Assembly (NCBI RefSeq): GCF_000430525.1 | Contig: NZ_AUME01000001.1 | Coordinates: 1-64,000, forward strand | Source of the DNA: Prevotella corporis DSM 18810 = JCM 8529 | GTDB lineage: Bacteria; Bacteroidota; Bacteroidia; Bacteroidales; Bacteroidaceae | Length of the DNA stretch: 64,000 nt | Direction of reading: 5' to 3' | In this document: in pieces, positions 7,871 to 51,911 of the stretch | How positions within the stretch are numbered: the stretch's first letter is position 1 | Layout: every line of letters starts with the position of its first letter | Notes under the pieces: model-generated | What the model was told of the DNA's origin: nothing | The model's input: only the letters and a program-made list of their open reading frames with translations | The model's database searches: none | Made by a program: the position numbers and the translations under genes

Positions 7871-8111
7871 AATCATCTCTGCGGACCATCCGAAAGTAAG
7901 GGGTGAGTTGTCAGAACCACGACTCTATGGGGCTCGTGACAGACTGATGCCCATTCGAACAAACAAACAACCTGCCCTAACTGTTTAGTAGGGCACACTC
8001 TCGCACAAAGCGAGGGCTGGGAGATGGTCATTCCCGGCAATATGAAAGAAGGTGCGTGACCTCACCTTACCCCTCTTCTGTGAAGGAAATGAGGGAAAGA
8101 CCTTTATAAAA

Positions 8112-46107: not shown

Positions 46108-46240
46108 TTAAAAAATAGACACCAAAATATTGAATGTTGAGAAGAAAAACCATAAAGATAAAATTTAAAAACAAGATCAATTAAACAGATATTAAAGAAC
46201 AGCCGTGAGGCTAAGTGTAAAATTTAAAGAATTAACAACT

Positions 46241-47758
46241 ATGGCAGATTTATTAGAAAACAATGAGAGCCAGTCGAATCAAACTGAAGCAAACCGCGAA
46301 GGCTATTCATCTGAAGAACAGACAGGTTTCGAGAGAGAGTATCGGAGTGTAGGACATTCTCCGCGTCCTCGAATCCATACACAACGTGCTTATGGAAGCG
46401 AGCAAAACAACAATGAAGAAGGCGGTTTCCGTCCTGAGGGCTTTGGAGTTAACTTAGGAAGCAACGCTGGTGGCGAACGCCAAGGTGGATATCGTCCACG
46501 CACCAACAAAAACTATAATAGTGGTGGCTATCAGCCTCGTCAAGGTGGCTATCAGAGTCGTCCACAACAAGGTGGCTACCGCCCACGCTATAACAATAAC
46601 GGAGAAGGAGGCGGTTATCAGCCCCGTCAAGGTGGTTATCAGAACAATGCTTACCAAAACCGTTCGCAGCAAGGTGGTTATCGTCCACGCTATAATCAAA
46701 TGGGTGAGGGCGAAGAATACCAGTCAACAGGCTATCAGAATCGTGGCGGCTACGAAAACCGAGGAGGCTACAACTACAACCGTGGCGGTTATCAGGGCCG
46801 TGGCGGTTACAACAATAATCGCGGCGGTTACAACAACAATCGTGGTGGCTACAATAACAATCGAGGTGGCTACAACAATAACCGTGGCGGATATAACAAC
46901 AATCGTGGCGGTTACAATAATAACCGTGGTGGTTACGGACAGCCAGGTGGCTATCGTCAGCGCAGTGCTGATTACGATCCAAATGCAAAATATTCGTTCA
47001 AGAAACGTATTGAATACAAGGAAGAGAATATCGATCCTAACGAGCCATTGCGCTTGAACAAATATTTAGCAAATGCAGGTGTGTGTTCACGTCGCGAGGC
47101 CGATGAGTTCATCCAGGCTGGTGCAGTAACCGTCAATGGCGAAGTTGTGACAGAATTGGGATCCAAGGTTTTGCGCGCCGATGAGGTTAAGTTCAAGGGT
47201 GAAGTCGTGTCTTTGGAGAAGAAAGTCTATGTTCTTTTGAACAAACCAAAGGACTACGTGACGACAAGCGATGATCCTCAACAGCGCAAGACGGTCATGG
47301 ACCTCGTGAAGGGGGCTTGCCCTGAGCGCATCTATCCTGTAGGTCGTCTTGACCGCAATACGACGGGTGTACTTCTCTTTACTAACGATGGTGACCTTGC
47401 CAGCAAGCTCACTCACCCCAAGTTCTTGAAAAAGAAAGTCTATCATGTTTTCCTCGACAAGCCTGTTGCTCCTCAAACCCTTCAGCAGATTTCAGATGGT
47501 ATCGAGTTGGAGGATGGCGAAGTGAAAGCCGATGCTATCGAATATGCTGACGAGCGCGACCAAAGTCAGGTGGGAATCGAAATCCACAGCGGTAAGAATC
47601 GTATCGTTCGCCGTATTTTCGAGAGCTTAGGCTATCGTGTTGTCAAACTCGATCGAGTACAGTTTGCTGGTCTTACAAAGAAAAATCTCCGTCGTGGCGA
47701 TTGGCGTTTCCTCACCGAGCAGGAAGTCGAGATGCTTCGTATGGGAGCTTTCGAGTAA
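46241..47758 (+). CDS. rluB: 23S rRNA pseudouridine synthase (RluB/RsuA family) with Gly/Tyr/Asn/Arg-rich N-terminus
   Basis: 505 aa from the ATG at 46241 (MADLLENNESQS); an upstream in-frame ATG (46205) is unlikely. Residues ~70-245 are low complexity, with a perfect run of about seven RGGYNNN units and related QGGYQ/RPR units. An S4 RNA-binding domain follows (about 268-325, LNKYLANAGVCSRREADEFI), then the synthase domain with catalytic Asp about 371 in PVGRLDRNTTG. The N-terminal extension resembles RGG-type RNA-binding tails and occurs in other Bacteroidota homologues. RluB acts on 23S helix 89-type positions; exact target unproven. Confidence 0.88.
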   Translation: MADLLENNESQSNQTEANREGYSSEEQTGFEREYRSVGHSPRPRIHTQRAYGSEQNNNEEGGFRPEGFGVNLGSNAGGERQGGYRPRTNKNYNSGGYQPRQGGYQSRPQQGGYRPRYNNNGEGGGYQPRQGGYQNNAYQNRSQQGGYRPRYNQMGEGEEYQSTGYQNRGGYENRGGYNYNRGGYQGRGGYNNNRGGYNNNRGGYNNNRGGYNNNRGGYNNNRGGYNNNRGGYGQPGGYRQRSADYDPNAKYSFKKRIEYKEENIDPNEPLRLNKYLANAGVCSRREADEFIQAGAVTVNGEVVTELGSKVLRADEVKFKGEVVSLEKKVYVLLNKPKDYVTTSDDPQQRKTVMDLVKGACPERIYPVGRLDRNTTGVLLFTNDGDLASKLTHPKFLKKKVYHVFLDKPVAPQTLQQISDGIELEDGEVKADAIEYADERDQSQVGIEIHSGKNRIVRRIFESLGYRVVKLDRVQFAGLTKKNLRRGDWRFLTEQEVEMLRMGAFE

Positions 47759-49451: not shown

Positions 49452-50555
49452 TTACTTGCCCGACTTCGTACGATTGCATTTCATGCAAAGCATCTGACAA
49501 TTCTCCTTTTCGGTCTTTCCGCCTTTATGCCAGGGTATTATGTGGTCGGCTTCCATGTCTTTTATATCGAAATGTTTACCACAAATAGGACAAATTCCTT
49601 CTTGTTCTTCATATACTTCTCGGCTGATGCGGTTGTCGAAGGCTCGAATATTCAAATACTTTTCGTTGCGCGTCAGCACATATTCGTAAATGCCTTTTTT
49701 GTTTTGCACCTCATCGTCTGTCATGAGTTGAGCCACCTCTGCCTCCAGCTTTTTAGTGTCTAACGCTTGTTTTCCAAACTCGTTGTAAAGCAATCCCCAT
49801 GGCAATCCTTTCATCTCACGGCGATAGGTGGGAAAGATGGTTTCCACCCAGTTGATGACCTGTGTGAAATAGAGCCACAATTCGTTGGCGTTGCTATCGT
49901 GTTGGTGGTCTGCCATGTATTGACGTACCTTTTCATCGGTTGTTCCTTTGGCATCATTGTTTATCCACGATAGGGCCAGTTCCAGTATTTCTTGCCGTAT
50001 GGCGATACCCTTTACATACTTCTCGCCCAACCCCATTGCCGGGCAACCCGTTTTGGAGAAGTGGCGTTTGGCGTCGGTGAGCCATTCGCCTGTATAGACA
50101 GCATTGCGCAATTCCTGATCGAATAGCTTTTCGCCGGCAATATTAATGGTTTTAAACCACTCCAACTTTTCACTATCGCTGCCCTCACAGAAATAAACCA
50201 TCAGCTCGTAGTTCAGGATTTGTGCTTGCTGGTCGTCGGTTAGAGAGTGAAAATATTGTTCCTTTATGGAGAAATCGCCAATCAGGTATTGACAAATGCT
50301 GAGTGTTCGTTGCTGTCCGTCTAACACTTCAAAACCTCCATCGTCCTTTTTCACCCAATACATCACGTTTAATGGGAATCCTTTCCTCACCGTATCTATT
50401 ACGGCATTGCGCTGTTCGTCCTTGTAAACAAACTCTCGCTGATATTTGGGGCGCACGTCAAGTAGTCCTCCGTATGCCACTACACCCTCTTCGGCATCGT
50501 CTTTATATCCTTGAAAAAGGTCTTTCAGCTTGATAGGTTTTAATTCTATTTTCAT
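49452..50555 (-). CDS. DUF262 + HNH nuclease
   Basis: 367 aa. The N-terminal DUF262 (GmrSD/ParB-like) domain carries LDGQQR (79-83 core DGQQR), the nucleotide-binding motif of GmrS/SspE/BrxU-type proteins. The C-terminal ~46 residues are a Cys4 HNH: CPICG (322-326), ADHIIPWHKGG with Asp337-His338, Asn352, and CMKC (357-360). The HNH here replaces the DUF1524 found in GmrSD. It follows the EcoRI-type methyltransferase by 71 bp on the same strand, suggesting a restriction partner or modification-sensing nuclease. Role inferred, not shown. Confidence 0.82.
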   Translation of the reverse strand: MKIELKPIKLKDLFQGYKDDAEEGVVAYGGLLDVRPKYQREFVYKDEQRNAVIDTVRKGFPLNVMYWVKKDDGGFEVLDGQQRTLSICQYLIGDFSIKEQYFHSLTDDQQAQILNYELMVYFCEGSDSEKLEWFKTINIAGEKLFDQELRNAVYTGEWLTDAKRHFSKTGCPAMGLGEKYVKGIAIRQEILELALSWINNDAKGTTDEKVRQYMADHQHDSNANELWLYFTQVINWVETIFPTYRREMKGLPWGLLYNEFGKQALDTKKLEAEVAQLMTDDEVQNKKGIYEYVLTRNEKYLNIRAFDNRISREVYEEQEGICPICGKHFDIKDMEADHIIPWHKGGKTEKENCQMLCMKCNRTKSGK

Positions 50556-50626: not shown

Positions 50627-51598
50627 TTATAGAGTCTTCTTTTTAATTAATATTCTGAAGTATGGTTGTACTTTCTTCCCATCTAAATCAGTATAAACCA
50701 AATCTCTCTCATCGTTACCTTTCCTAAATTTAATTATTTCAAACTGCTTAGGGTTGTACTTATCCATAAAAGTTATTGGAACGCCCATTACTCCTTCATA
50801 ATCCACCGGAATTTCCTTTACCTTATCCACGTTGATGGCATCGTAATTATCATATTTCGGATAATCTTCGGGTGTATAACGCTTATACAAAATCAGTTCT
50901 TCATGACGCTTTTGAATATCAAGATTAGTAAACCAACAAACATTCCCAAGGCTTCTCCATTTCTGTCCTGTGTCATCAATCCAAAACCTCGTTGCTCTCG
51001 GTTCAAAATAGTCGGGTACTTTAAATCCCATATCTCCGAAACCATAGCCTATCCACATTTCATTGCACTTAAGATATGGAAAAATCTCTTTGTAGGTAAT
51101 GGCATTCTGGTTGCCAATGATAACAAACTTCTTTTCATATTCCATTAGCTGCGCCACATAGTCACGGAACAAAGAAAAGGGAGGATTGGTCACGACGATG
51201 TCGGCTTGTTTTAATAATTCAATGCACTCCTTGCTTCGGAAATCTCCGTCGCCTTTTAAGGGCATCACTTCTATTTCCATATCGTCAACAATGCGATTGC
51301 CGTTTTTATCGCCCTCGTAAATGATATATACTGCCTGTTCAGACTTGTTTTGTGAGAAAAGATTAGGTTCTTGATTCTTGTAACAAGTAGCTATCACACG
51401 TTTCAACTCCAATTGCTCGAAGTTCAGAGCAAAGTATTTAAAGAAGTTGCTCACTCGTGGGTCGTCGCAATTACAAAGCACGGTTTTTCCTTTGAAGTGT
51501 TCTTTGTAGTGTTTCAACTCCCGTTCTATGTCGCCTAATTGCGTGTAGAACTCATCGTTCTTAGCCTTTTTTGCTAAGGTTAAGGTTTTATTCGCCAT
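50627..51598 (-). CDS. EcoRI-type adenine-specific DNA methyltransferase
   Basis: 323 aa from ATG 51598 (MANKTLTLAKKAKNDEFYTQ); an upstream in-frame ATG at 51655 would add 19 residues that do not look conserved. NDEFYTQLGDIERELKHY is the signature opening of the M.EcoRI family; the catalytic motif IV is TNPPFSLF (138-141 NPPF). It should methylate an adenine in a short site, possibly a GAATTC-like one, but specificity cannot be read from sequence. No EcoRI-like endonuclease is present; a DUF262-HNH gene follows instead. A long structured leader precedes it. Confidence 0.85.
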   Translation of the reverse strand: MANKTLTLAKKAKNDEFYTQLGDIERELKHYKEHFKGKTVLCNCDDPRVSNFFKYFALNFEQLELKRVIATCYKNQEPNLFSQNKSEQAVYIIYEGDKNGNRIVDDMEIEVMPLKGDGDFRSKECIELLKQADIVVTNPPFSLFRDYVAQLMEYEKKFVIIGNQNAITYKEIFPYLKCNEMWIGYGFGDMGFKVPDYFEPRATRFWIDDTGQKWRSLGNVCWFTNLDIQKRHEELILYKRYTPEDYPKYDNYDAINVDKVKEIPVDYEGVMGVPITFMDKYNPKQFEIIKFRKGNDERDLVYTDLDGKKVQPYFRILIKKKTL

Positions 51599-51662
51599 AG
51601 TAAAAGTTACTTTGAACGAATACTGAATTATTACAACAAAACGAGGAACGACCAAATACGAA

Positions 51663-51795
51663 AGAACGTGGACGCTAACTCATCCACGTTCTGAGGTACT
51701 TGGCCGAACCCACAATCACAGATAAGTCAAACGCCCACGCATATTGCGCAGACATTTGCAACTTATTCTCGTGATTGTTCTTTCTACGGCCAAGT
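51663..51795 (-). ncRNA. Structured leader or small RNA upstream of the methyltransferase
   Basis: Minus-strand order: a 98-nt hairpin (51698-51795), then a 10-bp hairpin AGAACGTGGA / TCCACGTTCT (51663-51692) with a weak U-tail. The long hairpin pairs ACTTGGCCG/CGGCCAAGT (9 bp), ACAATCAC/GTGATTGT (8), ATAAGT/ACTTAT (6) and a 14-bp apical stem (51728-51741 with 51745-51758). In that apical stem four pairs are G-U on the minus strand and A-C mismatches on the plus strand, which fixes the RNA strand as minus. A further small hairpin lies at 51805-51819. It could be a 5' leader or a separate RNA; class unknown. Confidence 0.5.
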
Positions 51796-51903
51796 TTCCA
51801 GAACGTTTATAGAATAAACAGCAAACGCTTTTTATTTATTACCAACAAAAATCTGAGTATTGGCGAACGTTTGGATTACTCTTCGGTTGCTTCTACTCAT
51901 TTG

Positions 51904-51911
51904 CAAACTTA
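51904..51911 (-). promoter_or_regulatory. -7 box for the methyltransferase leader
   Basis: Minus-strand TAAGTTTG fits TAnnTTTG; no -33 at standard spacing. It would give a ~300-nt leader containing the hairpins. Confidence 0.4.

Follow-up and report, generated by a model that had tools for sequence, protein, structure and literature searches.

The window analysed here is a stretch of 64,000 nt from Prevotella corporis DSM 18810 (contig NZ_AUME01000001.1), and it raises the question of what is done by a long hairpin at 51698–51795, located upstream of a DNA methyltransferase gene. That gene (50627–51598, minus strand) encodes an EcoRI-type adenine-specific enzyme (PF13651, E = 9.8e-143). On the same strand lies a gene for a GmrSD_N and HNH protein (49452–50555), assigned by PADLOC as the type II restriction enzyme that is the partner of the methyltransferase. 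Between the methyltransferase and a tRNA-Leu gene the window has no open reading frame of at least 80 amino acids. Elsewhere it contains an engA RNA (RF02972, a known cis-regulatory family of Rfam) at 7974–8074 on the plus strand, and a long open reading frame at 46205–47758 (plus) with a repetitive GGY/NNNRGGY first half and, as judged by eye, a C-terminal part like that of a pseudouridine synthase.

The hairpin is genuine and is a minus-strand structure. As minus-strand RNA 51698–51795 folds with −48.8 kcal/mol, compared with −23.3 ± 2.9 kcal/mol for shuffled sequences (z = −8.7; none of 200 shuffles was as stable), while the plus strand reaches only −33.4 kcal/mol (z = −6.7). The apical stem comprises 14 bp between 51758–51745 and 51741–51728 (minus), all paired and with exactly four G–U pairs; the plus-strand fold is weaker because these turn into A–C mismatches. 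The lower helices of the hairpin form as they were given in the preliminary description, as does the flanking 10-bp hairpin (51692–51663, minus), and the entire leader (51599–51910) is more stable than its shuffles (z = −6.7). What was observed there is thus confirmed. Its boundaries were set too narrowly, since the conserved element extends from 51830 to 51663 with an additional strand at 51659–51649. The small hairpin noted on the other flank (51819–51805) can form at this locus by pairing of GUUUAU with AUAAAC, but the 5′ hairpin that is conserved in the family lies at 51830–51820.

The element is an RNA of ~170 nt (51830–51663, minus) that lies downstream of a Bacteroidota-type promoter, has the long hairpin as its middle part, and ends 64 nt upstream of the start codon of the methyltransferase. 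All its features are on the minus strand. Starting at the 5′ side, the sequence contains a −7 promoter element TAAGTTTG (51904–51911; Bacteroidota consensus TAnnTTTG), from which transcription is predicted to start at about 51897. A 5′ hairpin (51881–51855) followed by a U-run is also present in the window leader, with look-alikes in several members of the family. The most conserved segment of the RNA is the small hairpin S1 (AAGCGUUUGCU, 51820–51830), which in the order of the RNA reads AGCGUUUGCU-UAUUC. In many members its AGCGU can pair instead with an ACGCU-like stretch at the element's 3′ end; in alignment A2 99% of the cells of the S1:S2 alternative pairing are paired, with S1 itself nearly invariant. 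The strand continues as A′ (ACGUUCUG, 51799–51806) and A (ACUUGGCCG, 51787–51795), the 5′ arms of P1a and P1b of the closing helix P1, and then forms the long P2/P3 hairpin (51712–51778) that includes the 14-bp apical stem. It returns as B (CGGCCAAGU, 51698–51706), which by covariation and transcript folding is the partner of A or, later, of C, and then as B′ (CAGAACGU, 51686–51693), which covariation and folding place both in P1a and in the 5′ arm of the next hairpin. The latter is the 10-bp GGA...UCC hairpin (AGAACGUGGA...UCCACGUUCU, 51663–51692); it resembles an intrinsic terminator, and is followed by UUUCG, a short U-run in this copy. After the U-rich tail comes the C strand (GUAUUUGGUCG, 51649–51659), an alternative partner of B that occurs mainly in Prevotella-type members, and finally the start codon.

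The helices are supported by covariation between members. In alignment A5 (80 sequences, fitted to a covariance model and so favouring the tested helices) 95.2% of the cells of A′:B′, A:B and P3 are paired, against 68.6% in shuffles, and 570 cells have changes on both sides, against 151. The covariation score is 0.773, falling to 0.27 when shuffled and to at most 0.14 when slid, and none of 500 shuffles reaches the observed covariation. In A2, made by MAFFT only, P1 is 94.6% paired and 14 of its 16 pairs have changes on both sides. The A′:B′ helix is about 96% paired, with changes on both sides; A:B is 95% paired, with such changes in all eight of its eight pairs. The arms of P2 are specific to each locus and yet complementary (mean longest helix 9.3, compared with 7.0 when the arms are swapped). 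The terminator hairpin covaries, as A′:B′ does. The B:C helix is 84.6% paired in A2, with changes on both sides in 9 of 11 pairs; C is not detectable in most members outside Prevotella. The preliminary description named a lack of covariation as what would refute its proposal, and the helices do covary. G–U cells outnumber A–C cells by 160 to 5 in P3 and by 24 to 3 in A′:B′, which fixes the strand of the RNA and agrees with the earlier choice of the methyltransferase strand. Few nucleotides are conserved outside S1 and P3. The predicted 5′ leader contains a covarying, aptamer-like domain.

The 3′ end of the RNA has the character of a terminator. Among 145 members the T content climbs to about 0.7–0.84 at this point, and 94 of the 145 have a terminator hairpin upstream of the start codon that passes the hairpin-plus-U test, compared with 3–17 of ~143 at six control offsets. 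The members that do not pass this simple test, about a third, include many from outside Prevotella. The lower 5′ arm of the terminator is B′, the strand with which A′ pairs in P1; the two folds therefore exclude each other. They are also closely balanced. In the window the calculated energies are −84.3 kcal/mol for the P1 fold and −86.4 kcal/mol for the terminator fold, and over 56 members the median difference is 1.3 kcal/mol, with 42 of the 56 within 5 kcal/mol. A helix that excludes the terminator is thus indicated by the overlap at B′, by the covariation of both helices and by their near-equal energies. In simulated growing transcripts of the window A:B and A′:B′ form first, the terminator forms once 51663 has been made, and B:C forms once 51649 has been made.

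The window copy is one member of a large, multi-copy family that is very common in Bacteroidota. BLASTN with the leader finds matches in 40 of 200 Prevotella genomes, some of which precede other genes (type III Mod, Res and Acyl_transf_3 proteins). The covariance model R1 (167 positions, from 19 members), with 7–9 candidates scored per genome, finds the RNA in 267 of 386 Prevotella genomes, in 84 of 295 Bacteroidales genomes (65 of 184 genera) and in 18 of 296 genomes sampled across the phylum, the P. corporis genome being counted. With 81 candidates scored in each of 35 nearly complete Prevotella genomes there are 0–8 copies per genome. A search of 80 loci that encode methyltransferase relatives reported 19 matches (E up to 0.1), and 17 of them are in the sense direction directly before the methyltransferase start. 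The RNA was not found in 18 genomes from outside Bacteroidota that have related methyltransferases. The P. corporis genome has a second copy associated with restriction–modification, L163 (contig C11, 23131–23295, minus), located before a type III Mod gene, where a strand complementary to B covers the start codon. A weak third copy (L162, contig C30, 476–638, minus; 35.8 bits) lies near a contig end and precedes a small open reading frame with a secreted-protein-like start. A small RNA of the FopS family (RF04319; L024:6608–6688, minus) was seen a few kb away from leader RNA copies and does not overlap them.

The position of the RNA with respect to promoter and gene is general. TAnnTTTG occurs upstream in 127 of 145 members (19.6 expected), clustered 60–120 nt before S1. 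Downstream, 136 of 140 cases have their longest open frame on the strand of the RNA; upstream the split is 41 to 24. The downstream gene mostly starts 55–90 nt past the RNA. For 40 further Prevotella copies the first downstream gene belongs to restriction–modification in 38; summed from member counts, and assuming no overlap beyond the families named, these 40 comprise EcoRI_methylase (20), N6_N4_Mtase (7), ResIII (5), N6/MmeI/HsdM type (4), and one each of C5 methylase, PLD-type endonuclease/helicase, Acyl_transf_3 and unassigned. PADLOC agrees with this bias. For 40 copies in other Bacteroidales we estimate from member counts that roughly a third precede restriction–modification or defence types (type III and IIG methylases, C5 methylases, DrmMII and helicases); the remainder precede BspA-type LRR proteins, T9SS-sorted proteins, lipoproteins, MBOAT and Acyl_transf_3 acyltransferases, and others. 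The protein at L153 looks like a MotA/ExbB protein of ZorA type, a name given by inference. Acyl_transf_3 membrane acyltransferases follow many of the top-scoring copies that are not linked to restriction–modification (L086, L087, L090, L093 and L107–L120), a hint that surface modification comes under the same leader. The interpretation in the preliminary description is thus partly supported. A leader controlling the methyltransferase fits the evidence, but the RNA is tied neither to this methyltransferase nor to a defence island, since its family precedes many unrelated genes.

We consider it probable that the element acts in cis, attenuating transcription in the 5′ leader ahead of the methyltransferase and endonuclease genes, and that it is one of a large Bacteroidota family. 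This model is supported by the covariation, the strand-specific G–U pairs, the terminator, the balanced folds, the promoter and the same-strand bias of the genes. In the nascent RNA the P2/P3 hairpin would form, followed by the closing helix P1, in which A′ and A pair with B and B′. The 3′ arm of the terminator would then compete for B′ as it emerges. A win for the terminator would end transcription some 64 nt short of the gene; a P1 that persists would let the polymerase read through, and the gene would be expressed. In Prevotella leaders the later C strand would capture B, and may lock the outcome. Termination in vivo, the assignment of P1 as the ON state (made because P1 overlaps the terminator), the role of C and that of any ligand are all things that we infer. 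This likely mechanism, P1 against terminator, depends upon sequence beyond 51698–51795. Some features count against an attenuator: the U-run in the window (UUUCG) is short, about a third of members fail the terminator test, the unrelated downstream genes point to no clear common ligand, and a ligand-binding riboswitch usually has more conserved nucleotides than this RNA shows outside S1 and P3.

It is unlikely that the element is instead a free-standing small RNA gene acting in trans, with promoter, structured RNA and terminator, the next gene having its own promoter. It does have a promoter element and terminator of its own, and its fold is very stable; however, this reading fits poorly with the same-strand gene at narrow spacing, the strong bias towards restriction–modification, and helices that are variable with few conserved unpaired stretches, and a plain small RNA needs no two balanced folds. 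That the two folds act mainly on translation or mRNA stability rather than on transcription, by occlusion of the start site in B:C or as an RNase III site, is more doubtful still. The B:C helix lies near the start codon, and the coverage of the ATG at L163 is in keeping with such a role, but C is absent from most members outside Prevotella while the terminator is common. Very little probability attaches to an attenuator in which translation of a short upstream reading frame chooses the fold. Mutually exclusive helices with a terminator resemble leader-peptide attenuators, and 55 of 124 leaders could encode a peptide of at least 6 amino acids from an ATG; but 39 of the 124 have no ATG at all from the predicted start to S1+45, and a conserved leader peptide was rejected on this count. 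A mobile repeat (MITE- or REP-like) accompanying accessory genes is very improbable, for despite several copies in some genomes, an inverted-repeat architecture and adjacent accessory genes, the P. corporis genome has no second near-identical copy by BLAST, copies diverge with compensatory changes and strand-specific G–U pairs, the order of promoter, RNA and gene is fixed, and the window copy has no match in plasmid or phage collections.

The element corresponds to no known family of Rfam. A scan of that collection (4227 families) at gathering and at permissive scores gave no match over it. Bacteroidales-1 RNA (RF01693) is likewise a structured RNA of Bacteroidales, but its single copy in the P. 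corporis genome is on a different contig. A retron msr-msd RNA was also rejected; there is no reverse transcriptase among the Pfam families listed for the downstream proteins (25 of 44 in one set). The open-access literature searched, which took in the main texts of papers on non-coding RNA discovery, yielded no description of the element, and the main texts of reviews of restriction–modification regulation from 2013 and 2025 contain no riboswitch or attenuation. On these grounds the RNA is, as far as could be checked, an undescribed family of a known kind, attenuator or orphan riboswitch, in a comparison that extends to families other than the GUCCY-hairpin (a 2010 motif of Bacteroidetes and Proteobacteria with no Rfam entry). 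With transcriptional and orphan riboswitches it shares a structured 5′ domain, a closing helix with a strand in common with an intrinsic terminator, the cis position and covariation across many taxa. It differs in how few of its nucleotides are strictly conserved beyond S1 and P3, in the extra C strand of Prevotella, in being a candidate class with no known ligand, and in preceding restriction–modification, surface-protein and acyltransferase genes that have no obvious common metabolite. Type II restriction–modification systems are regulated by antisense RNA and controller proteins, including in an EcoRI-type methyltransferase context (PMC3874152); there an antisense RNA is made from a reverse promoter, whereas the element here is a structured leader with a terminator on the sense strand.

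Because one RNA is shared between unrelated genes, each gene is not likely to be controlled through the protein that it encodes, and either a signal or a buffering role common to all of them is favoured. What acts on the attenuator is thus likelier to be a small molecule, protein or physiological state shared by these genes than the product of the gene itself. It is possible, though on balance doubtful, that the family is a new class of Bacteroidota riboswitch or signal-sensing RNA, in which one shared cellular signal turns on DNA-defence and cell-surface genes, and in which several strands exchange, P1 giving way to the terminator before B, in Prevotella, passes from A to C.

The control of restriction–modification genes, by controller proteins, antisense RNA or autorepression, has long been a matter of inquiry. 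If the predicted mechanism is true, a whole phylum would place one kind of RNA switch ahead of widely differing types of restriction–modification system. The same switch would stand before surface-exposed and surface-modifying proteins, tying DNA defence and the state of the surface to one signal, and the family is large enough for searches for a ligand or partner.
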